DNA of 64,000 nucleotides from Pseudomonadota bacterium (GTDB taxonomy: Bacteria > Pseudomonadota > Gammaproteobacteria > Steroidobacterales > Steroidobacteraceae), in assembly GCA_021822385.1 (NCBI GenBank), contig JAKARC010000007.1:1-64000 (forward strand), read 5' to 3'. Positions 4,329 to 40,013 of the stretch are shown here, piece after piece. Under the pieces are notes generated by a model. It searched no databases. It was not told where the DNA came from and saw only the letters and a list, made by a program, of their open reading frames with translations. The stretch's first letter is position 1, and every line of letters starts with the position of its first letter. The translations under genes were made by a program, and so were the position numbers.

Positions 4329-7831
<3,503 letters not shown>

Positions 7832-7889
7832 GCGACCGAGCAAACGATCCCGCGGACAACCCCACGAGCAGGCACCGCAGTTCCCGGGA

Positions 7890-8984
7890 TCACAGCCGCA
7901 TCGGCATCACAACGTATTGTGCCTGAGTGAGTCCAGGGGCCCGAATGAGGCAGCTACTATTCGCATCGGCGAATCCCAGCTCTACGCGATCGGTCTCGAC
8001 GGCGTTTAACGCGTCGAGCAAGTAATTGACGTTGAAGCCTATTTCGACTTCTTCACCCTGATATTCGATCTCGACCTGGTCCTCCGCTTCTTCGTGCTCC
8101 GGATTATGGGCCTGCAGCGTGAGCATGTCCGCTTTCAGACCCACCCGAATACCTCGATATTTTTCATTGGACAGAATAGCGGTTCGCTGCAAAGCCTGTC
8201 GCAGCAGCGCCCGATCGGCATGCACGATTTTCGGGGGATGATCAGGAATCACGCGTCCATATTCTGGAAACTTGCCATCAATAAGCTTCGAAGTGAAGCG
8301 AATATTACCAATCTGGGCACGAATGTGATTAGTCCCGATGGCCAATTCGATACTGCCCTCCGTCCCCAGGATTCGCTGCAGCTCAAGGACCGCTTTGCGG
8401 GGAACGATGACTTGACCCGGTCGAATGGGCTCACTGAGGCTCATCTCACACCATGCCAGCCGATGACCGTCGGTGGCCACGGCACGCAAGGTTGTCTCGG
8501 CAGTTTCGAGCAGGAGCCCATTGAGGTAGTACCGCACATCCTGCTGCGCCATCGAAAAATGCGTCATGTCGATCAGGCGGCGAAACTCGCCCTGCGGCAG
8601 CGTCAAGGTCTGTTGCGCCTGAATTTCCTCCAGTGTGGGAAATTCCGCCGCCGGCAGAGTGGCCAGCGTAAACCGGCTGCGGCCGGAGCGTATGACGACC
8701 TTATCGCCGTCGGTACTGACGTTGACATCCACTTCGGCCGGCAGCGCACGCAGAATGTCGTGCAGCTTGCGACCCGGCACCGTGACATCCCCAGGCATGT
8801 CCACCTGCACCGCACCGACGGCGGCCAGTTCCACCTCCAGATCCGTACCCGTGATCCCGAGGTGCCTCTCTCGGGCCGCCAACAGCACGTTCGCGAGCAC
8901 CGGCATCGTCTGCCGGCGCTCGACCACACCGATCACGTTCTGCAGGGGAGCGAGGAGCTCCTCGCGTTTCGCCATCAGCTTCAT
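7890..8984 (-). CDS. dnaN: DNA polymerase III sliding clamp, beta subunit
   Basis: 364 residues, close to the 366 of E. coli. Starts MKLMAKREELLAPLQNVIG, followed by VVERRQTMPVLANVLL, and ends with the hydrophobic cleft-forming QYVVMPMRL that binds clamp partners. Three repeated clamp domains of about 120 residues fit the length. It encircles DNA and holds DNA polymerase III on the template. It lies downstream of dnaA with a 218-bp gap that carries DnaA-box-like sequences. Confidence 0.97.
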   Translation of the reverse strand: MKLMAKREELLAPLQNVIGVVERRQTMPVLANVLLAARERHLGITGTDLEVELAAVGAVQVDMPGDVTVPGRKLHDILRALPAEVDVNVSTDGDKVVIRSGRSRFTLATLPAAEFPTLEEIQAQQTLTLPQGEFRRLIDMTHFSMAQQDVRYYLNGLLLETAETTLRAVATDGHRLAWCEMSLSEPIRPGQVIVPRKAVLELQRILGTEGSIELAIGTNHIRAQIGNIRFTSKLIDGKFPEYGRVIPDHPPKIVHADRALLRQALQRTAILSNEKYRGIRVGLKADMLTLQAHNPEHEEAEDQVEIEYQGEEVEIGFNVNYLLDALNAVETDRVELGFADANSSCLIRAPGLTQAQYVVMPMRL

Positions 8985-9202
8985 AGGTCTTGCTCTTCTT
9001 TATCTTAAGATCTGAAAATCAGATTGTAGTGATGATTGGGCCTGTGAACAGTGGTAACTCATCTGTCGGACCCATCCGATCAACCGCTTGCATACCATTT
9101 GCGCGACCTGTGCATCGGGGACACTCTGGGCATCGACTGTGCATTGGGTGTGTGTAACGTTATCCCCAATTCTGTGCACCGGCTATCCACAGATTTATCC
9201 GC
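8985..9202. other. Candidate chromosomal replication origin (oriC) in the dnaA-dnaN gap
   Basis: The gap holds three forms close to the DnaA box TTATCCACA: TTATCCCCA at 9160-9168 (one mismatch), CTATCCACA at 9183-9191 (one mismatch) and TTATCCGCT at 9195-9203 (two mismatches). At the dnaN side an AT-rich stretch (about 8996-9036, with TTTATCTTAAGATCTGAAAA) could be the unwinding element. TGTGCAT recurs at about 9109, 9138 and 9174. The other candidate gap, between dnaA and rpmH, shows no recognisable box. The number of good boxes is low, so the call is tentative. Confidence 0.5.
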
Positions 9203-10546
9203 TCATCCGGTGAGGGTTCTCAACAGGTTCAAATAGTCGACCTTCATGTGGTCGTCCATATCGCGCAGCGATTTGATGCGCTTGCATGCGTGCAGCACGG
9301 TGGTGTGATCTCTTCCACCGAAGGCGTCGCCGATCTCCGGCAAGCTTTGGCTGGTAAGTTCCTTGGCCAGGGCCATCGCCACCTGACGCGGGCGGGCGAC
9401 CGAGCGGCTGCGGCGCTTGGAGAGCAGGTCCGCCATCCTCACTTTGTAGTAATCCGCCACGGTCTTCTGAATATTCTCGATGGTCACCAATTTCGCCTGC
9501 AGCGATAGCAGGTCCTTCAAGGCTTCCTTGGTGAACTCGAGGGTGATCGGCTCGCCGGTGAAACGCGCATTCGCGATGACGCGCCGCAACGCGCCCTCGA
9601 GCTCGCGCACATTCGAGCGAATGCGCTTGGCGATGAAGAACGCGACCTCCTCCGGCAGCGGCATACCGAACTGACGCGACTTGCTCATCAGGATGGCGAC
9701 ACAGGTTTCGAGCTCCGGGGGCTCGATCGATACCGTCAATCCCCAGCCAAAGCGGGATTTCAAGCGTTCCTCGAGGCCATCGACCTCCTTCGGATAGCGA
9801 TCGCAGCTGAGGATTACCTGATGCTGCCCTTCGAGTAACGCGTTGAACGTGTGGAAGAACTCCTCCTGCGACCGTTCCTTGCCGGCAAAGAACTGGATGT
9901 CATCGATCATCAGCGCATCGAGCGAGCGGTAGGCCGTCTTGAACTCGTTCATAGAGTTGTGCTGCAGGGCCCGCACCATGTCACTGACGAAGCGTTCCGA
10001 ATGCACGTACGCGATGCGCACTTCCTCGTTTTGCATACGCATGAATTGCCCGATCGCGTGCATCAGATGCGTTTTGCCCAGTCCTACGCCACCGTATAGA
10101 AACAAAGGGTTGTAGGCGCCTCCGGGATTTTCCGCCACCTGCAGCGCGGCCGCCTTGGCCATTTGATTGCTCTTGCCCTCGACGAAGGTGGCAAAGGAAA
10201 AATCCGGGTTCAGGCGTGCGCCGATTACCAGGCCTTCGCGCCGCCCGGTCCGCTTCGCCGGCTCCGCGGCCACGCTCACCGGCGCGGCCTCGAGCGGCGC
10301 CGGGCGCGATCCGACCTCCACCGTGACGATCGGGACATCACCGGTGCTTTTGTCACGCAGCAGCTCGCCGATCCGCGGCAGCAGCCGCTCGTTGATCCAC
10401 TCGACCACGAAACGATTCGGCGCGAGCAGCTTCAGTGCACCGGCACCCTCGAGCGCCTGCAATGGGCGCACCCAGGTATTGAACTGCTGTTCCGGAAGCT
10501 CGGCCTCCAAGGCACACATGCACCGAGCCCACAATGACGCTTCCAC
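9203..10546 (-). CDS. dnaA: Chromosomal replication initiator DnaA
   Basis: 447 residues from the GTG at 10546, which begins [18 protein letters not shown] and has a purine-rich GGGGGTAGGCAGG segment upstream. The frame remains open to 10594, but that extension is not family-like. Domain I ([15 protein letters not shown]), a variable linker, the AAA+ domain with Walker [14 protein letters not shown] and Walker B LMIDDIQF, and domain IV with the DNA-binding signature [15 protein letters not shown] are all present. It binds DnaA boxes and opens oriC. Divergent from rpmH. Confidence 0.97.
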
Positions 10547-10704
10547 CCTGCCTACCCCCGATGGCAACTGCGCGCCGTGCTCAGCCCGGCGCATCGACGC
10601 GAATGCGGGAGATGCATCAGGGATGAGTCCGGCTTCGTGGAGAAAGGGCTCGGCAGTCTATACCGATCGACGCGTGCGCTGAAGATTTTCACATGCTAAA
10701 AATA

Positions 10705-10733
10705 TTGACACTTTGGCGGTCAACAGCTTAGCC
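10705..10733 (+). promoter_or_regulatory. Possible rpmH promoter
   Basis: TTGACA at 10705-10710 is a perfect -35 hexamer; 17 bases later TTAGCC is only a weak -10. It lies 48 bp upstream of the rpmH start on the correct strand. The -10 is poor, so the call is moderate to low. Confidence 0.4.
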
Positions 10734-10780
10734 TTGCCGCCCCTTTTTGGAACCTCGATAGAATCCTCTGGAGCCCCGGT

Positions 10781-10915
10781 ATGAAGCGAACCTATCAGCC
10801 GAGCAAGGTGCGTCGAAAGCGCACGCACGGGTTCCGAGCGCGCATGGCGACTCAAAACGGTCGCAGGGTGCTGGCCCGACGCCGCGCCAAGGGGCGCAGG
10901 AAGCTGATTCCCTAA
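10781..10915 (+). CDS. rpmH: 50S ribosomal protein L34
   Basis: 44 residues, [20 protein letters not shown] at the start and GRRKLIP at the end, the standard length and sequence of L34. Very basic. It is a component of the large ribosomal subunit. First gene of the rpmH-rnpA-yidD-yidC-mnmE series that runs away from dnaA. CTCTGGAG lies about 6 bases before the ATG. Confidence 0.98.
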
Positions 10916-10928
10916 TCGGGAGCGCTTT

Positions 10929-10955
10929 GCGCCACCGCCGCTGGTGCGGTGGCGC
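10929..10955 (+). promoter_or_regulatory. Perfect hairpin between rpmH and rnpA
   Basis: GCGCCACCGC (10929-10938) pairs completely with GCGGTGGCGC (10946-10955) around a 7-base loop. It starts 13 bases after the rpmH stop and ends 13 bases before the rnpA ATG. No T-tract follows, so it is more likely an RNA-processing, stability or attenuating structure than a full terminator. Confidence 0.5.
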
Positions 10956-10968
10956 GCCGCTGGCCCGC

Positions 10969-11352
10969 ATGTCCCGTGCGCCTCGAGAGCAGCTGACCTT
11001 TCCGGCGCACCGGCGCCTGAGGCATAAATCGGAGTTCGAGACCGCGTATGCGCGCGGCCGACGCTTTGGCAACGGATTTTTCGGGGTGACAGTGATCAGC
11101 AACGACAAGAGCGGGCCTCGCCTCGGTATGGCGGTCGCGCTACGCGTGACGCGTACCGCCGTGGAGCGAAACCGCATCCGGCGCATCATCCGCGAATCGT
11201 TCCGAACCCACCAGCATATGCTGCCGCCCGTGGACGTGGTGGTCGGTGCCCGTGCCCGTGCCCCGGGCGCCAGCGCACACGTGCTGCGCACCCATCTCGA
11301 GCCGCTATGGCGACAGGTCAGCGAGCGATGCGTACTCTCGCCACCGGCCTGA
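10969..11352 (+). CDS. rnpA: Ribonuclease P protein component
   Basis: 127 residues, basic. The RNR signature [15 protein letters not shown] is present, with [15 protein letters not shown] at the front as in the family. It is the protein cofactor of RNase P, which matures tRNA 5' ends. ATG 10969 gives the normal length; a TTG at 10927 with GGGAG upstream is possible but would run through the hairpin. Its 3' end overlaps yidD by 25 bp, which suggests translational coupling. Confidence 0.95.
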
Positions 11353-11573
11353 TCCGCCTGTATCAATGGACCCTCAGTCCCCTGCTCGGCCCGAACTGCC
11401 GATTTCATCCCTCGTGTTCCCAGTACGCGCTCGAGGCGATCGAGCGGTTCGGGGTGCTGCGCGGTGGATGGCTGGCCGTCAAGCGCATCGGCCGCTGTCA
11501 CCCGTGGCATCCCGGGGGATACGATCCGGTGCCGACCCATGGCGCAGACCGGCTTGCTCATCGACATGACTAA
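11328..11573 (+). CDS. yidD: Membrane protein insertion efficiency factor YidD
   Basis: 81 residues from ATG 11328, inside the end of rnp[35 protein letters not shown] and [13 protein letters not shown] are the conserved YidD blocks, including the cysteines. It is a small amphipathic inner-membrane-associated protein that assists YidC-dependent insertion. The end overlaps yidC by 8 bp. Confidence 0.95.
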
Positions 11574-13263
11574 TCAACTTCGCTACTTTCTCTGGCTAGG
11601 CCTGCTCGTCCTGTTGTGGTTCAACTACACGACGTGGACCGCGCAGTTTGCGGCGGAGCCGCAATCTTCGGCCGCACTCCGTGCGGCGAGCCGCGCACCG
11701 GCGCTCTCGAACACCATACCCCAGACCTCGGCGCCGCCGGCGTCGACTGCGACTTCAGCTGCGCCCAGCCCCGCCAAGCCCGTAACGCGGGTGTCTCCCG
11801 TGCCGCTCGCCACGCCAAAAATCGTGTTAGGCGCGGCGCCGGTGATTCACGTTCACACCGATGTATACGACCTCGAAATCAGCACCGAGGGCGGGACGTT
11901 GGTGAAGGTCGACCTGCGTCGCTACGCCAAGGTGCAGGGTGAACGCGCTCGCGTTCAGCTCGAGAACACGGTCCCGGCGACCCAATATCTTCTGCAAACC
12001 GGCCTGACCGGCAATCCTGCGACGAATTATCCGACCCAGAGCGCGCGCTTTACTGCGCCGCAGCTCGATTACCGGATGGGTGCCGCGTCGGAATTGCGCG
12101 TGCCGCTCACTTGGCGTCACGACGGCGTCACCGTCACCAAGACATTCGTCTTCCATAAGGACTCGTATCGCATCGGTCTGCACTATCTCGTCGTGAACCA
12201 CAGCGGTGCGCCGTGGACGTTCGCCCCCTACGCACAGCTGTTCCGCAACGATCCGCGCACCAAGGGCAGCTACTTTCATCCCACGAGTAATGCCTATCAC
12301 GGACCGGCCATCTGGGATGGGCACAAGTACGTCGAGCTCAATCCCGCCAGCCACAAGTACCAGCACTTCGAACAACAGGTCACGGACGGGTGGATTGCCG
12401 TGCCGCAGCTCGACTTCGTCAGCGCCGTGGTGCCGCCCGCCGGTGCGCCCTATCGGATCACTTCGCAGGTTTCCGGGAGCGATTACCTGCTGGCAGCCAC
12501 CGGGCCGGACCACACGGTGCCTCCTGGCGCCACGCAATCATTGCGCCAGACACTGTTCGTCGGACCGACTCTGCATGGACAGCTGGAGAAGACCGATCCC
12601 ACGCTCACCTACCTGGACAACTACGGGTTCTTTACGCTGCTCGCCCGGCCGTTGTTCTGGCTGCTCAGCCGTGTTCACGGCATCACGGGCAATTGGGGTG
12701 TGGCGATCATCGTCGTCACCATCCTCCTGAAGCTGCTGTTCTATCCGCTCTCGGAAGCCAGCGGTCGCTCCATGGCGAAGATGAAAGCGCTGGCGCCGCG
12801 CATCAAGACCATCCAGGAGACCTACAAGGACGACAAGGAGAAGCTCGGCCGCGCCATGATGGAGATCTACAAGCGCGAGAAGGTGAATCCCGTCGCCGGC
12901 TGTCTGCCCATGCTCCTGCAGCTGCCCGTGTTCATCGCATTTTATTGGGTACTGCTCTACAGCGTGGAGCTGCGCCAGGCGCCCTTCATCTTCTGGATCC
13001 ACAACCTCTCGGCGCGCGACCCGTACTTCATTCTTCCGGCCATCATGGCCGGCACCGGCTACCTGCAGTTCAAGCTCAATCCGGCGCCACCGGATCCGAT
13101 CCAGGCCAAGATGATGATGATCATGCCGCTGATCATGGCCGGTCTGTTCGCCTTCTTCCCCTCGGGATTGGTGCTCTACTACGTCGTGAACAGCCTCTTG
13201 TCGATCGCCCAGCAGTGGCATATCAACCGGCGCATCGTCGCGGCGACGAACCGGCGCACCTGA
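11566..13263 (+). CDS. yidC: Membrane protein insertase YidC
   Basis: 565 residues, gram-negative long form. One N-terminal membrane segment ([15 protein letters not shown]) is followed by a Pro/Ala/Ser-rich linker and a large periplasmic domain. The conserved insertase core then follows with [21 protein letters not shown], the [19 protein letters not shown] coiled-coil loop and four further helices. The C-terminus is basic ([12 protein letters not shown]). Works alone or with SecYEG in inner-membrane protein insertion. ATG 11566 overlaps the yidD end. Confidence 0.97.
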
Positions 13264-13314
13264 ACGTCGCGGGAGTCCCGCTCGGACGCGGCAATCTGCG
13301 GTAGCATTCCCGGC

Positions 13315-14667
13315 ATGTTGCCTTCGGACACGATCGTGGCGCCGGCAACTGCGCCTGGGCGCGGTGGCATCGGCATCGTGCGCGTTTCCGGACCGAAGGT
13401 CCCGGAGATCGCCGCAGCATTGCTCGGCGAATTGCCGGCGCCGCGCACGGCGCACCTGGCCCCGTTCTGCGATGCCCTCCGGGTGCCCATCGATCTCGGC
13501 TTGGCCCTGTTTTTTCCAGCGCCTCACTCCTACACCGGTGAGGACGTATTGGAATTGCACGGCCACGGCGGACCTGCGGTACTCGACGCCCTGGTGGCGC
13601 GCGTTCTCGAGCTCGGCGCCCGCGCAGCGCGTCCCGGGGAATTTACGTTGCGGGCTTTTCTGAACGACAAGCTCGACCTGGCTCAGGCAGAGGCGATTGC
13701 CGATCTGATTGATGCCGGCTCCCGCGCCGCCGCGCGCGCGGCCGTGCGCTCACTGCAGGGCGAATTCTCGGCCATGGTCCAGGGTCTGACCGAAGCCCTC
13801 ATCGAGACGCGCACGCAGGTCGAGGCGGCCATTGATTTCCCGGAGGAGGAAATAGATTTTTTTGCGGATCGCCAACTGCAGGAGCGCTTTCAGGCGCTGA
13901 GTGAGCATTTCAACGCCGTCGAGCAGAGCGCCCGCCAAGGGGCTCTGCTTCGGGATGGCATGACGGTGGTGATTGCGGGACGACCGAATGCGGGTAAGTC
14001 CAGCCTGCTCAACCGCCTGGCGGGATATGATGCCGCAATCGTCACCCCCATTGCCGGCACGACGCGAGACATCGTGCGCGAACGGATCAATGTCGATGGC
14101 ATGCCACTGCACGTGCTCGATACCGCCGGACTACGGGATGACGCGGACACGGTCGAAGCGGAGGGCATCCGCCGTGCCGAGGAGCAGATGCGGCATGCGG
14201 ACCGAGTGCTGTTCGTGATCGATCTGCTCGATGATCCGAATGCTGGCGCCTACGTCCAGGAGAAGGCGCGTCTGCCGCCCGATGTTCCGGTCACCTTGGT
14301 GCTCAACAAGAGCGATCTTGGCGGTCCCATTCCGCTCGATGACACCGTGACCGGCCCGCCCCGCATCGTGCTGTCGGCGCTGACCGGCGCGGGCATCGAT
14401 CGGTTGCGCGAGCACCTGAAGGCATGCATGGGATTCCACAGCGTCGAAGGGGGTACGGTCTCTGCGCGCCAGCGCCATCTCGACGCGCTGCTGCGCGCAC
14501 GGCAGCACGTGACCCAAGCCGAACGGCTGCTGCGCGAAACCCGTGCCGGCGAACTGGTCGCCGAGGAGCTGCGGGGTGCGCAGCGGGTGCTTGGGGAAAT
14601 CACCGGGGAGTTCACCGCCGACGATCTGCTCGGTCGGATCTTCGGGAGTTTCTGCATCGGGAAATAG
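13315..14667 (+). CDS. mnmE: tRNA uridine-5-carboxymethylaminomethyl modification GTPase MnmE
   Basis: 450 residues. N-terminal tetrahydrofolate-binding domain starts with [19 protein letters not shown]. The central G domain has [25 protein letters not shown] and NKSD. It ends in the catalytic CIGK of the [11 protein letters not shown] terminus. With MnmG it modifies the wobble uridine of several tRNAs. Last gene of the rpmH series. Confidence 0.97.
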
Positions 14668-31818: not shown

Positions 31819-32277
31819 ATGGCAATTTCCATGGATGCCGAGCAGCTTGAACGACGCCGGACGATCGTGCGCATCCTGCGCAGCGGCGTGGTGCAACGCC
31901 AGGCCGATCTCACCCGGCTGCTGCGCCAGGAGGGCTATGCGGTCACGCAGTCCTCCGTCAGCCGCGATCTGCGCGATCTCGGTGTGCTCAAGGCGAGCGG
32001 CCGCTATGTCCTGCCGCCGGAGGAATTCACGCGCACGCATGGCGATTTCGCCACGCTCGGTCAGTTCGTGCGTGGGCTGCGGCGCGCGGGTGCCTCTCTG
32101 ACCATCCTGCGCACCACCACCGGCGCGGCGCAGAGCGTCGCCGTCGCCATCGACCGCGCCGAATGGCCCGAGGTTGCCGGGACGCTCTCGGGCGACGACA
32201 CCATCTTCATTGCCACCGCCTCGGCCCGCGCCCAGGATCAGCTGGTCGCGCGCTTACAGGCGCTCTTTCGGATCTGA
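31819..32277 (+). CDS. argR: Arginine repressor ArgR
   Basis: 152 residues. N-terminal winged helix with RRRTIVRILRSGVVQRQADL and TQSSVSRDLRDLGVLKASGRY. The C-terminal arginine-binding oligomer domain has RTTTGAAQSVAVAIDRAEWPE and GDDTIFIATASA. The frame is open to a GTG at 31768, but that lies within the promoter and operator, so ATG 31819 (or 31831) is preferred. First gene of the arginine operon, 4 bp before argG. Autoregulation is likely from the ARG boxes. Confidence 0.93.
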   Translation: MAISMDAEQLERRRTIVRILRSGVVQRQADLTRLLRQEGYAVTQSSVSRDLRDLGVLKASGRYVLPPEEFTRTHGDFATLGQFVRGLRRAGASLTILRTTTGAAQSVAVAIDRAEWPEVAGTLSGDDTIFIATASARAQDQLVARLQALFRI

Positions 32278-32281
32278 ACCC

Positions 32282-33514
32282 ATGCCCACTGTTGCCACTG
32301 CGGGCGAGCAGCCCATCGTTCTCGCCTATTCCGGCGGCCTCGACACCTCGTTCCTGGTGCCTTGGCTGACCGAGACTTACCGCCGTCCGGTCATCACCTT
32401 GACGGTGGATACCGGTGGCATCGATGCCGAGGCGGCCCGGACGCTCGCCGAGCGCGCCCGAGCCCTGGGGGCGATCGAGCACCATCAGATCGATGCGCGC
32501 GCCCAGTACTTCGAACAGGTGCTGCGCTTCCTGATCATGGGCAATGTCCGGCGTGGACAGGTTTACCCCCTGTGCGTGGGCGCCGAGCGCGTGATGCAGG
32601 CGCAGACACTCGCGCGCATGGCGCGCGAACTCGGCACCACCATGATCGCCCATGGCTGCACCGCGGCCGGTAACGATCAGGTGCGCTTTGAGGTTGCGCT
32701 GCGCACGCTGGCCCCCGAGCTCGAAGTGCTCGCGCCGGTGCGCGATCGCGCATTCAAGCGCCCGGAGGAACTGGCCTTCCTGCAGGCGCGCGGCTTGCCG
32801 GTGCCGCCGTTCGGCGCCGCCTATTCGATCAATCGTGGCCTCTGGGGCGTCACGATCGGGGGCCAGGAGACCCTCACCTCGAGTGATGGCCTGCCGGAGC
32901 AGGCCTGGGTGCTCACTCGGGATGCATTCACGCGTCCGCGCCCCCCTGAGCAGCACGTCATTACATTCGAGCGCGGCCGCCCGACGGGTCTCGATGGCCG
33001 CGCGCTCGAGCCGGTGGCGCTGATCGAGGCGCTGGAAGCGATCGCCGCGCCGTTTGGCATCGGCCGCGGCATTCACCTCGGCGACACCATCATCGGCACC
33101 AAGGGTCGCGTGGCGTTCGAGGCGCCGGCTGCCGAAGTGCTGCTCACCGCGCATCGCGAACTCGAGAAGCTGGTGTTGACGGGCCGCCAACAGCGGATCA
33201 AGGAGCTGCTCGCCCAGCCCTATGGCGATCTGGTGCACGAGGGCCAGCTGCTCGATCCGGTGTGCCGCGACATCGAGGCGCTGCTCGAATCGTCGCAGAC
33301 GCGCGTGAGCGGTACTGTGCGCGTGACGCTGCGTCCGGGGAATCTGTTCATCGAGGGGGTCGATTCGCCGTATTCGCTGATGCGCGCCTCCAAGGGCGTC
33401 TACGGTGAAGCCGCCGGCGAATGGACGGCGCAGGATGCGCTCGGCTTCTCCAAGATCGTCGCGCTGAGCGGTGTGTTTCACCGGCGTGCAGGCTCCACCG
33501 GCGAGGTGGCCTGA
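32282..33514 (+). CDS. argG: Argininosuccinate synthase
   Basis: 410 residues. PP-loop LAYSGGLDTSFLVPWL for ATP, AHGCTAAGNDQVRFE, YSINRGLWGVTIGG and GTVRVTLRPGNLFIEG are family motifs. It joins citrulline and aspartate with ATP. ATG 32282 follows the argR stop by 4 bp; a longer frame upstream lies inside argR. If the downstream carbamoyltransferase acts on N-acylornithine, a deacylase must release citrulline before this step. No such enzyme lies in the window. Confidence 0.96.
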   Translation: MPTVATAGEQPIVLAYSGGLDTSFLVPWLTETYRRPVITLTVDTGGIDAEAARTLAERARALGAIEHHQIDARAQYFEQVLRFLIMGNVRRGQVYPLCVGAERVMQAQTLARMARELGTTMIAHGCTAAGNDQVRFEVALRTLAPELEVLAPVRDRAFKRPEELAFLQARGLPVPPFGAAYSINRGLWGVTIGGQETLTSSDGLPEQAWVLTRDAFTRPRPPEQHVITFERGRPTGLDGRALEPVALIEALEAIAAPFGIGRGIHLGDTIIGTKGRVAFEAPAAEVLLTAHRELEKLVLTGRQQRIKELLAQPYGDLVHEGQLLDPVCRDIEALLESSQTRVSGTVRVTLRPGNLFIEGVDSPYSLMRASKGVYGEAAGEWTAQDALGFSKIVALSGVFHRRAGSTGEVA

Positions 33515-33515
33515 T

Positions 33516-34592
33516 ATGTCGAACGGCATGCGCAGCGTCGTCGTCGACAAGATCGCCTCGGTGGCGCAGGCCTGCGGGCTTTCCCACGAAGTGCGGGTCG
33601 CAACCGACATACCGGCCGAGGAGGGCGTGGTCCTCGTGGTCGAGGTGTTGACCAACAAATCGACCTACAACCAGATCGAGTTGAGCAGCGGCCGCATGGC
33701 CAAGGTCGGCAAGGGCGACGTGGTCGTCGGCGCGCTCGGGCATCGCAAGGCGTTGTTCGGTTACTCCGGCCACATCCCGCCGACGGTCAAGGCGGGCGAT
33801 GTGATCCAGCTGCTCAACATCGGCGGGGTGCTCGGGGTGTGCGATTCGATCAACCCCGACAAGGGCCAGCCGTTCGACTGCCGCGTCATCGGTGTCGTGC
33901 TGCGCTTTCCCTATCTGGGCGAGCGCATCGGCGTGCCAGCGCGGGTCGGCTATCGGCGGCTCGAGCCGGCGGCGCCTCTCGATACCCGCAACGTGCCGGT
34001 CGTGGCGCTCGCCGGCACGTGCATGGAAGCCGGCAAGACCGCCGCGGCGTGCGCCGTGATCAGCCGTATGCGCCACCGCGGCCTGACCATCGATGCGTTC
34101 AAGGCCACCGGTGTGTCACTGCGGCGCGACATTCTCGCTATGGAGGATGCCGGCGCGCGCCGCTCGGCGATCTTCACCGATTTCGGAGTCGTCACTACGA
34201 CGCGCAGCAACGGACCTGCGCTCACCCGGACGATGCTCACCGAGCTTGCCGCCGGTAAGCCCGACGTCATCGTGTTCGAGCTGGGCGACGGCATCCTGGG
34301 TACCTACGGCGTGGATGCGATTCTCGAGTGCCCCGACATCCGCGCCGCGCTCACCGGCGTCGTGCTTTCGGCCAACGATCCGGTGGCCGCCTGGGGCGGC
34401 GTGAAACTCCTGCGTGAGCGCTTCGGCATCGAGCCGTGCGCCTTGACGGGCCCGGCCACCGATAATCAGGTCGGAATCGATCTGATCACCGAGCAGCTGC
34501 GGGTGCCGGCATTCAATGCCATCAGCAGCGGCGCTCTGCTCGGCGAGCAGGTGATGCAGGCCGTCGGTCTCGCTCGCGAGGCCGAGCGATGA
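33516..34592 (+). CDS. Unknown P-loop protein embedded in the arginine operon (DUF1611/BioD-like C-terminal domain)
   Basis: 358 residues from ATG 33516, one base after the argG stop; the end overlaps argC by 4 bp (ATGA). Residues 1-155 form a domain I do not recognise, rich in beta-strand pattern (VVLVVEVLTNKSTYNQIEL, KVGKGDVVVGALGHRKALF). From about 160 a P-loop domain begins with VVALAGTCMEAGKTAAA, whose Gly-x5-Gly-Lys-Thr spacing (Gly167, Lys174) is that of BioD and DUF1611_C. KATGVSLRRDI, IFTDFG and VIVFELGDGILGTYGVDAIL follow in the DUF1611_C order. Tight coupling to argG and argC implies a role in arginine synthesis. An acyltransferase role at glutamate is a hypothesis only. Confidence 0.9.
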   Translation: MSNGMRSVVVDKIASVAQACGLSHEVRVATDIPAEEGVVLVVEVLTNKSTYNQIELSSGRMAKVGKGDVVVGALGHRKALFGYSGHIPPTVKAGDVIQLLNIGGVLGVCDSINPDKGQPFDCRVIGVVLRFPYLGERIGVPARVGYRRLEPAAPLDTRNVPVVALAGTCMEAGKTAAACAVISRMRHRGLTIDAFKATGVSLRRDILAMEDAGARRSAIFTDFGVVTTTRSNGPALTRTMLTELAAGKPDVIVFELGDGILGTYGVDAILECPDIRAALTGVVLSANDPVAAWGGVKLLRERFGIEPCALTGPATDNQVGIDLITEQLRVPAFNAISSGALLGEQVMQAVGLAREAER

Positions 34593-35650
34593 GCGGGCGG
34601 ATCCCGGCGGTGGTGCTGGGCGGCACCGGTTACGTGGCCGGGGAACTGCTGCGGCTCCTCGCCGGACACCCGCGCTTCGAGGTGCGCGCCGTGATGTCCG
34701 ACAGTCAGCCGGGCGAGCCGATCGGTGCGGCCTTTCCGCATCTTGCCGCGATCTATGGGTCGGCGTGCTTCCGGGCGCAAAGCGACGTCGAGGCGCTGTT
34801 GACCGACGCGCCGCAGTCCGCGCTGTTCGGTGCGGCGCCGCATGGCGTTTCCGCCCGACTCATCGACGCGATGCTCACCGTTGCCGAGGCTGCCGGCACG
34901 CGCGTGCGCGCGGTGGACATCTCGGCCGACTTCCGCTTCCGCTCGAGCGATGCGTATCAACAGGTCTACGGCCATCCCCAGGGCGCGCCGCGGCGCCTGG
35001 CGCAGTTCAGTTGCGCGGTGCCGGAGCACCTTGCCGAACTCGCAACACCGCACGTGGCCCACCCGGGCTGCTTCGCCAGCGCGGTGCTGTTGGCGGGTGT
35101 ACCGCTGCTGCAGCTGAATCTGTCCGCGCCGCAGCTGTTCGTGTCCGGGGTCACCGGCAGCACGGGCTCGGGACGCAAGCCGGTGGCCGGGACCCATCAT
35201 CCGCTGCGCCACAGCGACCTGTATGCGTACAGTCCACTGGCACATCGGCATGCTCCCGAGATCGCCGCCTGCATCCACGGTGCCACGGGCGTTGCCGCGG
35301 ACATCGCGTTCGTGCCGCATTCCGGACCGTTCGCGCGCGGGATCCATGTGACGGTGCAGTCTGCGCTCGCGCGCCGGCTCGATACGGCCGCCATCCTCAG
35401 TTCGCTGCGCGAGTTCTATGCGGGGTCCCCCTTTGTGCGTGTCCTCGATACACCGCCACGGGTGAAAGACATCGTCGCGAGCAATTACGCTCACCTGAGC
35501 GCGACCAGCGACGGCCGCACGGTCGCGGTGATGTGCACGCTCGACAATCTCACCAAGGGCGCCGCCGGCGGCGCGATCCAATGGATGAACCGGCTGTTCG
35601 GTCTGGCGCAGACCGAGGGTCTCACGGCGCCGGCGCCCGGCTGGACTTGA
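34589..35650 (+). CDS. argC: N-acetyl-gamma-glutamyl-phosphate reductase
   Basis: 353 residues. Rossmann start VVLGGTGYVAGELLRLLAGHP, the catalytic Cys in HPGCFASAVL, and TGSTGSGRKPVAGTHH, VAFVPHSG-like IAFVPHSGPFARGIH further on. It reduces the N-acylglutamyl phosphate to the semialdehyde with NADPH. Family members accept acetyl, LysW-bound or possibly succinyl forms; the substrate acyl group here is not readable from this protein. Coupled to the upstream P-loop gene by the ATGA overlap. Confidence 0.95.
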   Translation: MSGRIPAVVLGGTGYVAGELLRLLAGHPRFEVRAVMSDSQPGEPIGAAFPHLAAIYGSACFRAQSDVEALLTDAPQSALFGAAPHGVSARLIDAMLTVAEAAGTRVRAVDISADFRFRSSDAYQQVYGHPQGAPRRLAQFSCAVPEHLAELATPHVAHPGCFASAVLLAGVPLLQLNLSAPQLFVSGVTGSTGSGRKPVAGTHHPLRHSDLYAYSPLAHRHAPEIAACIHGATGVAADIAFVPHSGPFARGIHVTVQSALARRLDTAAILSSLREFYAGSPFVRVLDTPPRVKDIVASNYAHLSATSDGRTVAVMCTLDNLTKGAAGGAIQWMNRLFGLAQTEGLTAPAPGWT

Positions 35651-35659
35651 GGCGAAGGC

Positions 35660-36829
35660 ATGAACACTCCGACACCCGTCCCAGCGCACGCGCCGCCCGC
35701 CGACGGCCTGGCACCGGTCTACACCCAGTACCCGTTCGAGGTGGAGCACGCCGAGGGTGTCTGGCTCATCAATGCCCGCGGCGATCGCGTCCTCGACCTG
35801 TATGGCGGGCATGCCGTTGCCGCGCTGGGGTACGGCCATCCGGGCTGGACCGAGGCGCTGACCGCGCAGGCACGCGCCTGTCAGTTTCAGACCAACGCGA
35901 TCGGCATGAATATCCGCGCGCGTGCCGCGCAGCGGCTGCTCGCGTTTTCCGGGCTCGATCTCGCCAGTGTGTTTCTCGTCAACAGCGGTGCGGAGGCCAA
36001 CGAGAATGCGCTGCGGCTGGCGCTGCACATGACCTCGCGACCGCACGTGGCAGCGCTCGAGGGTGCCTTTCACGGCCGCACGGCCGCTGCGGCGGCCGTC
36101 ACCTGGGGCGCCGAGGCGTGGTACGGTTTCCCGCACAAGCCCTTCGATGTCAGTTTCATGCCCCGGCACGACATCGGCGCCATCGCTGCGCACGTGACCG
36201 AACGGACCGCCGCCGTCATCGTCGAGCCGGTGCAGGGCCTGGCCGGCGCGGTCGATATCGGCGCGGCGTATCTCGGGGCGTTACGCGCTCGCTGCGACCA
36301 GGTTGGCGCGCTGCTCATCTTCGACGAGGTGCAGTGCGGGTTCGGGCGCGTTGGCGCACCCTTTGCCGCCACACTGTACGGGGTCACGCCGGATCTGCTC
36401 ACGACGGCGAAAGCGCTCGGCAACGGTTTTCCGTGCGCGGCACTGCTGTGTTCGGCGCCGGTATCGGCCGCATTGACCATCGGTCAGCTCGGCACGACTT
36501 ACGGCGGCGGCCCGATGGCCTGCGCGGCGCTGCTCGCTGCGATCGAGGCAATAGAATCCGAGCGGTTGCTGGACAATGTTCGGCAGATGAGCGCGACCAT
36601 CCGGCGCACCTGCTGCGTCGGGCCGGTGACCGCCATTCAGGGTGAGGGTTTGCTGCTCGGCCTGCGCGTGCGCCGCCCGGCCAAACAGATCCAGGCGGAG
36701 CTCCTGCGCCGCGGTATCCTCGCCGGCACGGCGAGCGACCCTGAGATCGTGCGGCTTCTGCCGCCCTTCATTCTCGCGGCGCAGCACGTCGAGCTGTTGC
36801 GGCGGGCGCTCGTGGACATCGGCGGATGA
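35660..36829 (+). CDS. argD: N-acylornithine aminotransferase
   Basis: 389 residues, class III aminotransferase. FLVNSGAEANENALRLA, AAVIVEPVQGLAGA, LIFDEVQCGFGRVG and the PLP lysine in TTAKALGNGFP are present. It makes N-acylornithine from the semialdehyde and glutamate. The end overlaps argF' by 4 bp. ArgD/AstC family enzymes are known to act on both acetyl- and succinyl-ornithine, so it fits either route. Confidence 0.94.
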   Translation: MNTPTPVPAHAPPADGLAPVYTQYPFEVEHAEGVWLINARGDRVLDLYGGHAVAALGYGHPGWTEALTAQARACQFQTNAIGMNIRARAAQRLLAFSGLDLASVFLVNSGAEANENALRLALHMTSRPHVAALEGAFHGRTAAAAAVTWGAEAWYGFPHKPFDVSFMPRHDIGAIAAHVTERTAAVIVEPVQGLAGAVDIGAAYLGALRARCDQVGALLIFDEVQCGFGRVGAPFAATLYGVTPDLLTTAKALGNGFPCAALLCSAPVSAALTIGQLGTTYGGGPMACAALLAAIEAIESERLLDNVRQMSATIRRTCCVGPVTAIQGEGLLLGLRVRRPAKQIQAELLRRGILAGTASDPEIVRLLPPFILAAQHVELLRRALVDIGG

Positions 36830-37827
36830 AGCGCTTTCTCGACCTGGCGCAGCTGCCGCGCGCAGAAGTGCTCGCGTTGCTCGAGCTTGCCGGCCGGCTC
36901 GAGCGTGAGCCGCAGCCGCGGGCGCTCGCGGGCAAGATCCTCGGTCTGCTGTTCATGAATCCCTCGCTGCGCACGCTCGCCTCGATGCAGGCGGGCATGG
37001 CGCGGCTCGGTGGCAGCTCGTTCGTGATCACGCCGGGACAAGGCACCTGGCAGCTCGAGACACGGCTGGGCGCAGTGATGAACGGGGCGGCCGCCGAGCA
37101 TGTGCGCGAGGGCATTCCGGTGCTCGCGTCGTATTGCGATGCGATCGGCATCCGCGCCTTCGCCGACGGTCGCGATCTTGCCGCGGATCTGGCCGAGTTG
37201 AATTTCAACGCCATGGCGGCCTTGACCGACAAGCCTCTGATCAATCTCGAATCCGCCGTCAATCATCCCTGCCAGGCGCTGGCGGACTGGAAGACGATGG
37301 ATGATCTGTCCGTGCCGCGGCACGGCCGATTCGTGCTCTCCTGGGTCTATCATCCGCGCCCACTGCCGCTCGCGGTGCCGGCCGCCGCGCTGCACATGGC
37401 GGCGCTGCGCGGCATGGAAGTCGTGGTGCTGCGGCCGGAAGGCTTTGCGTTGCCGCCGGCGATCATGGACAAGGCGCGCCACGCGGCCGCGAGCAGCGGC
37501 GGATCGGTTCGCGAGAGCGACGTGCGTCGCGAGGCGCTCGCCGGCGCGGATGTCATCTATGCCAAGGAGTGGGGTGCCCCCGGATGCTACGGCGACCCGG
37601 CGGCGGAGGCGCGTGTGCGTGCCGCGTACACGGATTGGTGCGTGCGCGGCGACTGGTTCGAGCATGCCGCGCCGGACTGCCGGCTGATGCATTGTCTGCC
37701 CGTGCGGCGCAACGTCGCGGTCGCCGACGAGGTCCTGGACGGACCGCGCAGCCTCGTGCTGCGTGAAGCGTACAATCGTCTGCCGGTGCAGATGGCCGTT
37801 CTTTACCACCTGTTGAAGGGGCTGTGA
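36826..37827 (+). CDS. argF': N-acylornithine carbamoyltransferase, predicted N-succinylornithine type
   Basis: 333 residues of the AOTCase/SOTCase class rather than ordinary OTCase. It shows TPGQGTWQLET, GAVMNGAAAEHVREG, SYCDAIGIRAFA, the carbamoyl-phosphate HPCQ in ESAVNHPCQALADW, and HCLPVRRN. Ungapped comparison with the Xanthomonas campestris enzyme puts Ala90 at the position of its Glu92. That residue is reported to decide acetyl- versus succinyl-ornithine use; replacing Glu92 by Ala, Ser, Val or Pro turned that enzyme into a succinylornithine form. The first phosphate loop reads SLRTL, so the final Arg of the usual SxRTR is Leu51. Starts inside the argD end. Confidence 0.92.
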   Translation: MKRFLDLAQLPRAEVLALLELAGRLEREPQPRALAGKILGLLFMNPSLRTLASMQAGMARLGGSSFVITPGQGTWQLETRLGAVMNGAAAEHVREGIPVLASYCDAIGIRAFADGRDLAADLAELNFNAMAALTDKPLINLESAVNHPCQALADWKTMDDLSVPRHGRFVLSWVYHPRPLPLAVPAAALHMAALRGMEVVVLRPEGFALPPAIMDKARHAAASSGGSVRESDVRREALAGADVIYAKEWGAPGCYGDPAAEARVRAAYTDWCVRGDWFEHAAPDCRLMHCLPVRRNVAVADEVLDGPRSLVLREAYNRLPVQMAVLYHLLKGL

Positions 37828-37872: not shown

Positions 37873-38811
37873 ATGATCATGCAACCCGGTGACCAGACAT
37901 TGGCCATACGCGCGCTGAAGAGCGCGGCGCCGTACATCCGCATGTACCGTGGCAAGACGTTCGTGGTCAAGGCCGGCGGCGGTGTGTTTGCCGATACCGG
38001 CGCGACACGTACCCTCGTCGAACAGATCGCTCTGTTGCATTATTTCGGTGTCCGGGTGGTGTTCGTGCACGGCGGCGGTCCTCAGGTCACCGAGCTTGCC
38101 AACGCGCTCGGCGTGGAGTCGCGCATGGTCGAAGGCCGACGCATCACCGATCGGCGCTCGATCGACATCACCGCGATGGTTCTCAACGGCACCATCAACA
38201 CGCACATCCTGGGCGTGTGCCGGGAGCTGAACATCGAGGCGGTGGGGGTGAGCGGCGTCGATGCCGGCCTGGTGCGCGCACACCGGCGCCCGCCGGTGCA
38301 GTTGGCCGCGGACGGCGCGCTGGTCGACTTCGGGTTCGTCGGCGACATCGATGTGGTCGATCCCACGGTGTTGCGCAAGCTCCTGGAGAACAATTTGATG
38401 CCGGTGGTGAGTCCGCTGTCGGCCGACGATGCCGGCACACTCCTCAACGTCAATGCCGACACCGTGGCGGCGGCCTTGGCCGCTGCGCTGGGCGCGGAGA
38501 AGCTCGTGCTGTGTACGGGCGCGCCCGGGATTCTGGCGGATCGCTCCGATCCGCGTTCGCTCATCTCCTACACGGATCTGGCCGGGTTGCGTGAGCTGCG
38601 CGAGCAGGGCTGCATTGCCGATGGCATGCTGCCGAAGGCCAAGGCCATCGAAGCGGCGCTGCGCGGCGGCGTGCGCCGCGTTCACGTCGTTTCATATCAG
38701 GCGCCCGAGGGCATTCTGGGCGAGGTGTTCACCAACGAGGGCACCGGCACGCTGATCGTCGCCGACATCAATGCGTTGACGCCGGCCGAGCAGCTGAGCA
38801 CCGGGAGCTGA
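37873..38811 (+). CDS. argB: N-acylglutamate kinase
   Basis: 312 residues, amino-acid kinase fold. VVKAGGGVFADTGATRTLV, VFVHGGGPQVTELA, NVNADTVAAALAAALGAEK and GCIADGMLPKAKAIEAAL are the kinase motifs. It phosphorylates N-acetyl- or N-succinyl-glutamate. It is too short to carry the GNAT domain of the Xanthomonas-type ArgB kinase-synthase fusion, so the acylglutamate synthase must be another protein. GGAGG lies about 14 bases before the ATG. Confidence 0.94.
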   Translation: MIMQPGDQTLAIRALKSAAPYIRMYRGKTFVVKAGGGVFADTGATRTLVEQIALLHYFGVRVVFVHGGGPQVTELANALGVESRMVEGRRITDRRSIDITAMVLNGTINTHILGVCRELNIEAVGVSGVDAGLVRAHRRPPVQLAADGALVDFGFVGDIDVVDPTVLRKLLENNLMPVVSPLSADDAGTLLNVNADTVAAALAAALGAEKLVLCTGAPGILADRSDPRSLISYTDLAGLRELREQGCIADGMLPKAKAIEAALRGGVRRVHVVSYQAPEGILGEVFTNEGTGTLIVADINALTPAEQLSTGS

Positions 38812-38813
38812 AC

Positions 38814-40013
38814 ATGAGCCGGCTGTGGGACAAGGGCACGCCGCTCGACGAGCGGGTGCTGCGCTTCACCGCCGGGGAGGATTTCAGCCTCGACGAGCGG
38901 CTCATCCCGTACGACATCCGCGCCTCGATCGCGCATGCCGAAATGCTGCACGCGCAGGGACTCCTCGCCGCAACCGATCTCGCGGCCATCCGTGACGGCC
39001 TAACGGCACTCGGGCAAGCGCATGCCCGCGGCGAGTGGCACGTCGAGCTCACCGACGAGGATGGTCACACCGCGCTCGAGCGGCGGCTGACCGAGCGCAT
39101 CGGGCCTGCCGGCGGGCGTGTTCATCTCGGCCGGTCCCGCAACGATCAGGTGCTCACTGCATTGCGGCTCTATCTGCGCGAGGTCGTGGCGGATCTCAGC
39201 GCGGGCGCGATATCGGTCGCGGCGGCACTGGACCGTCTTGGGGCGCGCGAGCAGGCGACCGCGCTGCCCGGCTACACCCACATGCAGCAGGCGATGCCGA
39301 GTTCCGTACCGTTGTGGGCGGCCGGCTTCGCAGCGGAGATCCGCGACGACGCGCAAGCGCTGCGCCATGTCGATCGGCGCCTCGGCCGCAGTCCGCTCGG
39401 ATCGGCGGCGGGCTATGGCGCGCCGGGTCTGCCGCTCGATCGCGAGGCGACCCGAGCGAAGCTCGGCTTCGCCGCCGTGCACGAGCCGGTGACCGCCGTA
39501 CAGCTGTCCCGCGGCAAGGCCGAAGCGGAGCTGCTCTTCCACATCACCGTGCTGCTGCAGGATCTCGGCCGGCTTGCGGCTGACCTGCTGCTCTTTTACA
39601 CGCAGGAGTTCGGTTTCGTGCGCTTGCCCGAGGCATTCACCACCGGCTCCTCCATCATGCCGCAGAAGCGCAACCCCGATGTCTTCGAGCTGATCCGCGC
39701 TCGTTCCGCCACCGCGCAAGCCTGTCTGCTCGAGGCGCTGGCGCTGTGCGCCAAGCTGCCCTCGGGCTATCAGCGCGATCTGCAGTTGTTGAAGTTTCCT
39801 CTGTTCCGTGCCATCGACCTGACGCAGCAGACGCTCGGCCTGCTGCCGGCAGCACTCGATGCGCTCTCCTTCCGGCCCGAGCGCATCCGGCTCGATCCGG
39901 CCATCCATGCCGCCGAGGAGGCCAACCGCCTGGTGATGAGCGAGGGCATTCCCTTCCGCGAGGCGTACCGGCGGGTTGCCGCCAAATTGAAGGGGCCGGG
40001 GTCGGCGGGTTGA
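38814..40013 (+). CDS. argH: Argininosuccinate lyase, short form
   Basis: 399 residues, about 60 fewer than E. coli ArgH. HLGRSRNDQVLTALRLYLRE, ALPGYTHMQQAMPSSV and the signature loop GSSIMPQKRNPD are intact. The protein ends shortly after SEGIPFREAYRRVA, where longer homologues continue with a small C-terminal segment. It releases arginine and fumarate. The start follows the argB stop by 2 bp. Last gene of the operon; the AlgZ-like kinase follows. Confidence 0.94.
   Translation: MSRLWDKGTPLDERVLRFTAGEDFSLDERLIPYDIRASIAHAEMLHAQGLLAATDLAAIRDGLTALGQAHARGEWHVELTDEDGHTALERRLTERIGPAGGRVHLGRSRNDQVLTALRLYLREVVADLSAGAISVAAALDRLGAREQATALPGYTHMQQAMPSSVPLWAAGFAAEIRDDAQALRHVDRRLGRSPLGSAAGYGAPGLPLDREATRAKLGFAAVHEPVTAVQLSRGKAEAELLFHITVLLQDLGRLAADLLLFYTQEFGFVRLPEAFTTGSSIMPQKRNPDVFELIRARSATAQACLLEALALCAKLPSGYQRDLQLLKFPLFRAIDLTQQTLGLLPAALDALSFRPERIRLDPAIHAAEEANRLVMSEGIPFREAYRRVAAKLKGPGSAG

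Follow-up and report, generated by a model that had tools for sequence, protein, structure and literature searches.

The carbamoyltransferases acting on acetylornithine and on succinylornithine (ArgF′) are told apart at three positions, Glu92, Asn185 and Lys302 in Xanthomonas numbering, where the succinyl type has A, S, P, V or Q, then P, then V, I or E (PMC4581275, excerpts). GapMind agrees on the first site, and a succinyl route has been described in Bacteroidetes, with Bacteroides BT3761, more than 50% identical to the N-acetylglutamate synthase (NAGS) Cabys_1732, and with N-succinylglutamate as proposed product (PMC7311316, excerpts). DgcN is a D-glutamate N-acetyltransferase (EC 2.3.1.312) and acts on the glutamate amino group (PMC11747546, excerpts); it is also treated in PMC12363236 and PMC10845958 (excerpts). 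The stretch analyzed here (the window, 64,000 nucleotides of contig JAKARC010000007.1 from a gammaproteobacterium of the Steroidobacterales) contains an arginine operon with an additional gene, called X, for a P-loop protein. X is, with fair probability, the entry-step enzyme of an arginine pathway that would run on N-succinyl intermediates, and among candidates for the missing acylation step it ranks first.

X occupies 33516..34592 on the + strand, an open reading frame of 358 residues. The argG stop codon (TGA) ends at 33514 and the ATG of X is at 33516, leaving a 1-bp gap; at the other end, the ATGA at 34589–34592 makes the stop of X overlap the argC start by 4 bp. The P-loop, GTCMEAGKT, covers residues 167–175. 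With Pfam and NCBIfam assignments, the gene order is argR-argG-X-argC-argD-argF′-argB-argH, and the same searches on the cluster give no ArgA, no ArgJ and no NAT domain, ArgB being an unfused protein of 312 residues. The spacing, the loop and these absences had all been reported in a first-pass annotation of the sequence, and they hold; argE is also absent from the operon, an omission not listed there.

The order was sampled with 117 genomes, evenly drawn at a completeness of at least 85% (the window's own genome stands at 84.99%). The X profile matches 97 of them, of which 94 are counted as X proper because the matches in G002, G028 and G108 score only 86–96 bits and represent a distant paralogue; in G070, X proper is split in two pieces over two contigs. 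ArgJ is found in none of the 117 genomes (control positive in 10 of 14), and ArgA over cut-off in none (control over cut-off in 1 of 14). A NAT domain, fused to ArgB, occurs in 12 of the 117, never together with X proper; this search had no positive control (0 of 14), and the 12 matches score 134–159 bits for a cut-off of 27. The window's own genome has no NAT domain. An ArgA or ArgJ elsewhere, which the first-pass annotation had named as the finding that would speak against its proposal, was found neither in the window's genome (85% complete) nor in the sample, and the GNAT-fused argB that it wanted searched for is not in the window's genome and never accompanies X.

All 117 genomes can be accounted for: 94 with X, two with an X-type operon interrupted by a contig end (G083, G114), 12 with NAT, one with a Xanthomonas-type operon likewise interrupted (G037), and eight without argB or argF′. 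ArgF′ is over cut-off in 107 of 117, and two X genomes (G029, G079) show no more than partial matches below it. Of the 12 NAT loci, 11 were retrieved, nine of them with the complete Xanthomonas order argF′-argG-argE-argB/NAT-argC-argH (L145 and L152 are cut). The Xanthomonas-type ArgB-NAT kinase-synthase fills, in sister families of the order, the same step as that proposed for X, in an operon that, unlike the X operon, has an acetyl-type ArgF′ and argE, and that never occurs with X in the 117 genomes. By GTDB families, seven are X-type and five NAT-type with no overlap, a split that has a probability of 1 in 792 if each family were drawn independently. The eight genomes lacking argB and any argF′ over cut-off (G007, G011, G021, G025, G035, G045, G053, G108), five of them of 1.3–1.5 Mb, are possible arginine auxotrophs.

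For a closer view, GTDB contigs (one genome per species) were scanned, which gave 317 stretches encoding relatives of X, and the best 80 were kept (L001–L080). They are 75%–93% identical to X and are labeled Proteobacteria/Pseudomonadota, Gammaproteobacteria or Steroidobacteraceae, with Lysobacterales and Klebsiella once each. The match covers at least 343 of the 358 residues in all 80 and the argG and argC flanks are kept, so that the reading frame is not a chance one. Immediately 5′ of X stands argG in 78 of 80 loci (a contig edge and argR in the other two), and immediately 3′ stands argC in 76 by script (a contig edge in two, argD in two). One of the latter, L069, does carry argC (254 bits, cut-off 233.6; 65% identical to the argC of the window); in L046, argD is scored directly after X. 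Among the 49 of the 80 loci with all eight genes, the median identity to the window is 83.8% for X, 82.6% for argG and 69.1% for argC, and the most conserved of the eight genes is X in 33 loci and argG in 16. X is fixed in the arginine operon of a gammaproteobacterial order.

The residues of ArgF′ bear on the acyl group. The window's argF′, an acylornithine carbamoyltransferase gene (36826..37827, + strand; NF003384, 347.4 bits, cut-off 288), encodes A90, P181 and A298, which align to positions 92, 185 and 302 of Xanthomonas enzyme chains and thus read A, P, A. Some of those chains are residue-92 mutants, in keeping with the letters displayed. At 92 and 185, A-P is read in all 67 readable loci of the 80, and position 302 is A in 65, V in one and K in none, with 14 unreadable. 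Thirteen further X loci of the order have A-P-V (seven) or A-P-A (six), the two X operons cut by contig ends have A-P-V and A-P-A, and three X loci outside the order have P-P-E, P-P-E and V-P-E. The Xanthomonas-type set comprises 12 loci (the 11 with a NAT match and the cut operon of G037), of which ten are readable at 92 and 185, with E-N-K in eight and E-N-Q in two; over all 12, position 302 is K in nine, Q in two and unreadable in one. X accompanies succinyl-type ArgF′ and NAT accompanies acetyl-type ArgF′. Such a switch is expected of the enzyme that sets the acyl group. With succinyl-type residues beside X, the predicted product of X is therefore most likely N-succinyl-L-glutamate rather than N-acetylglutamate. 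The first-pass proposal that X supplies the N-acylglutamate stands in that X is the best candidate, ArgA and ArgJ not being found and NAT never occurring with X in the order; judged by ArgF′, the acyl group would be succinyl and not acetyl. The Bacteroides system shares with the X operon its proposed product and its succinyl-type ArgF′ (PMC7311316, excerpts).

X also occurs beyond the order. In a sample of the class (323 genomes), 26 match X and five of these belong to the order; four others have X-like proteins of 297–345 bits (G367, G151, G321, G216), and the remaining 17, distant relatives, do not exceed 96 bits. Three of the four have argD-argF′-argB-argH-argG-X-argC and the fourth, on a short contig, argG-X-argC; ArgJ is in none of the four (ArgA and NAT were not searched for there). 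A sample of the phylum (397 genomes) has 31 with a match to X; besides the window's own, only G635, from another class, scores high (556 bits). Its locus holds only argR-X-argC-argB, and it has no ArgJ (again, ArgA and NAT were not searched for). ArgJ does occur in G619 (146 bits) and G665 (112 bits), which have distant relatives of X only. L071, from the set of 80, likewise has argR-X-argC-argB, without room at the locus for argG, argD and argF′. The enzymes that act next are ArgB and ArgC, and that X is kept with their genes in both G635 and L071 fits an early step. Plasmid records have only distant X matches (seven records, none covering 80% of X), and PHROGs has no match to X at an expectation value (E) of 0.01.

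BT3761 is a member of the GNAT family; X, in contrast, is a P-loop protein. Pfam at E 0.1 finds no GNAT, NAT or ArgJ domain in X and nothing at all in its N-terminal part, and no NCBIfam model matches X at E 0.1, including those for DgcN (NF041892, cut-off 480 bits) and BioD (TIGR00347). In the structure model, the P-loop domain resembles BioD and DUF1611, with the P-loop fold of the nucleotide-binding domain common to BioD and X. By sequence, in correction of the first-pass annotation, the DUF1611_C likeness is weak: X scores only 15.6 bits over 42 residues against a cut-off of 25 (PF07755), and the cut-off is reached by none of six proteins (besides X, L105 with 17.3, L173 with 16.9, L174 with 15.9 and L176 with 14.3 bits; L220 has no match at E 0.1). 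Sequence searches retrieve no solved relative, neither of X (E up to 1) nor of a related subfamily, A3 (E up to 0.01). The N-terminal domain has many invariant polar residues, and its mean column identity (82%, 60 sequences) is about that of whole X (83%, 30 sequences).

The members of this DUF1611-like subfamily (L098, L100–L103, L178) are 28%–33% identical to X, and their profile A3, which also contains L104 with different neighbors, matches X, N-terminal domain included (probability 100, E 3.8e-48, 322 columns; 99.9 in a second comparison). They have GTSMSAGKT where X has GTCMEAGKT, lie outside arginine operons, and co-occur with X in some genomes (e.g., G078 and G100). At first pass, the N-terminal part had been judged unlike the known DUF1611 N-terminal domain and perhaps the mark of a distinct family; it has indeed no Pfam match, but it is common to this other uncharacterized subfamily. 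DgcN and X have P-loop domains of the same broad superfamily and different N-terminal halves. Profile comparison aligns the P-loop domain only, with 11%–25% probability, so that the analogy with DgcN drawn at first pass is weak. The neighbor of DgcN, the racemase DgcA, is found at L185 (445.9 bits, over 400) and probably at L187 (386.7, just below), whereas X is flanked by arginine genes. As another source of acylglutamate, DgcN was rejected: its model matches 31 of the 117 genomes (five over cut-off) and not the window's. X thus forms a family of its own, whose P-loop domain is BioD/DUF1611-like. What the evidence suggests for this family, N-succinylglutamate synthesis, is a job not known for it.

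In the DUF1611-like loci L098, L100, L101, L102, L103 and L178, a trio recurs: a protein of ∼205 residues (flavin-reductase-like in Pfam; L098, L178), an M20 peptidase (in L098 and L102 closest to glutamate carboxypeptidases) and the P-loop protein. This trio may likewise act on N-acylglutamate. Distant P-loop relatives in L180, L181 and possibly L179 form another group and adjoin a gene of ∼568 residues, in L180 an ABC exporter by Pfam.

As proposed, X would join a succinyl group, most simply from succinyl-coenzyme A (succinyl-CoA), to the amino group of L-glutamate, and the resulting N-succinyl-L-glutamate would be passed to ArgB, ArgC, ArgD and ArgF′. CoA or ATP would sit with its phosphates in the P-loop domain; the N-terminal domain would help to hold the glutamate and succinyl parts. 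The EC class of DgcN (2.3.1.312; PMC11747546, excerpts) makes succinyl-CoA the favored donor. At the end, the M20 enzyme DapE, by family an N-succinyl-diaminopimelate desuccinylase, would strip the succinyl group from N-succinylcitrulline.

Four X genomes, the window's and three on single contigs (G027, G060, G042), had all their M20-family matches classified. In the window's genome these are DapE (551 bits, cut-off 284) and a dipeptidase-like protein; G027 and G060 each have DapE and an aminopeptidase-like protein; in G042, DapE and a dipeptidase-like protein are joined by a 607-residue frame without NCBIfam match. ArgE is over cut-off in none of the four. Judged by these family matches, DapE is the only deacylase of the ArgE/DapE type found there. 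If the intermediates are succinylated, DapE could serve lysine and arginine alike. Six other genomes, classified in part, have four to 13 M20 matches each.

Another reading, with an outside chance, keeps the product and changes the chemistry. Like BioD, X might be a ligase and not an acyltransferase, an ATP-dependent N-succinylglutamate synthetase that would phosphorylate the carboxylate of free succinate, the glutamate amine then attacking the acyl phosphate. This would place X in a new branch of the BioD/DUF1611 P-loop superfamily, whose members would couple acyl groups to glutamate or related amines.

With no ArgE in the operon and DapE the sole such deacylase found in the four genomes, there is room for X as a transacylase or deacylase. 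It is unlikely that X is an ArgJ-like transacylase, which would move succinyl from N-succinylcitrulline to glutamate and, by closing the cycle, replace synthase and deacylase together. The absence of both argA and argE from the operon agrees with this, as does the M20 content of the four genomes, where DapE is accompanied by dipeptidase- or aminopeptidase-like proteins (and the one 607-residue frame in G042). But there is no sequence link to ArgJ, either in X or in the 117 genomes, a P-loop is unexpected in a plain transacylase, DapE could be the desuccinylase, and in G635 X is paired with argC and argB only.

Slightly less probable still is a desuccinylase acting on N-succinylcitrulline, the acylglutamate then being made by an unrecognized protein, for example a GNAT. 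The lack of argE in the operon would suit it, and GNAT-like matches occur in some of these genomes, one of them just 3′ of argH in L099. However, X has argG and argC as its neighbors and, in G635, is still found with argC and argB; the known ArgE and DapE are M20 metallohydrolases, whereas X has an intact Walker A loop; and DapE is already available for the desuccinylation. The L099 protein (172 residues) was considered as NAGS and rejected, at 30.9 bits for a cut-off of 202.85 (TIGR01890). A similarly weak GNAT match lies near the operon in G069. Least probable is an accessory P-loop protein without pathway catalysis (for example a HypB/UreG-like metal chaperone, or a regulator that one arginine enzyme needs). 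In 94 genomes, no known enzyme would then remain for the first step, and the N-terminal part is conserved almost as the whole, more than a mere nucleotide switch would need.

Several observations weigh against X as N-succinylglutamate synthase. The Ala at position 302 of the window's ArgF′ is outside the published V, I or E (PMC4581275, excerpts). The exclusion between X and NAT is an exchange of whole operon types and not of single genes, so that the acylation step is not singled out; and since argE is missing together with argA, genome evidence alone cannot separate acylation from deacylation. X has no demonstrable closeness to any enzyme of known function in the NCBIfam, solved-structure and profile comparisons; the alignment with E. 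coli BioD is limited to 34 columns, at 51% probability. The N-terminal domain, predicted alone from 60 sequences, gave a mean predicted local distance difference test (pLDDT) score of 37.4. GNAT matches without assignment also occur in these genomes, where a stand-alone acyltransferase of the BT3761 type was not searched for.

In the open-licence literature (most subscription papers and all bioRxiv preprints were outside its scope), we found no assignment of this arginine step in these bacteria, and a text search of PMC11378808 for arginine, DUF1611 and acetylglutamate gave no hit. Most sampled genomes of the order have no recognized first arginine enzyme, a gap that X, a single conserved gene, would close. 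What is new here is the succinylornithine-type residues at positions 92 and 185 in every readable ArgF′ beside X; with succinyl as the predicted acyl group, the route described in Bacteroidetes (PMC7311316, excerpts) would extend to Gammaproteobacteria. If true, arginine auxotrophy could be predicted better, and an uncharacterized P-loop family would have its first testable function.

The other genes of the operon are, like X, on the + strand. The arginine repressor gene argR (31819..32277) is over cut-off for PF02863 and PF01316, with an uncertain ATG start. The start of argG (32282..33514; argininosuccinate synthase; TIGR00032, 287.6 bits, cut-off 268.2) was inferred as an ATG inside a longer frame from 32174. 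Downstream from X are argC (34589..35650; N-acyl-γ-glutamyl-phosphate reductase; TIGR01850, 267.9 bits, cut-off 233.6) and argD (35660..36829; acylornithine aminotransferase; PF00202 over cut-off, the best NCBIfam match being TIGR00707 with 309.3 bits, below its cut-off of 410). After argF′ come argB (37873..38811; stand-alone N-acylglutamate kinase; TIGR00761, 209.5 bits, cut-off 151.3) and argH (38814..40013; argininosuccinate lyase; TIGR00838, 305.5 bits, cut-off 279.5). In the X operons of L055, L057, L065 and L071, there is no room for argD between argC and argF′.

Internal stops were flagged in 11 matches of X proper (10 TGA, one TAG; one paralogue match has TAA), and selenocysteine at TGA was considered. 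It was dropped, as the 11 fetched loci align to X without stops by BLAST, except L087, where the stop is C-terminal, past the conserved part; these are ordinary stops. A second protein like N-acetylornithine carbamoyltransferase (234–262 bits, cut-off 288) lies off the operon contig in several genomes (G003:C23, G005:C5, G014:C6, G019:C20, G028:C3, G037:C244, G049:C22). The contig of L043, titled as a metagenome-assembled genome of Klebsiella pneumoniae, bears an X-type operon 63%–81% identical to that of the window and is probably a mislabeled record. The window probably covers the replication origin region, since gyrB, dnaA, yidC and mnmE lie within 4329–14667; the arginine operon starts ∼21 kb from dnaA.
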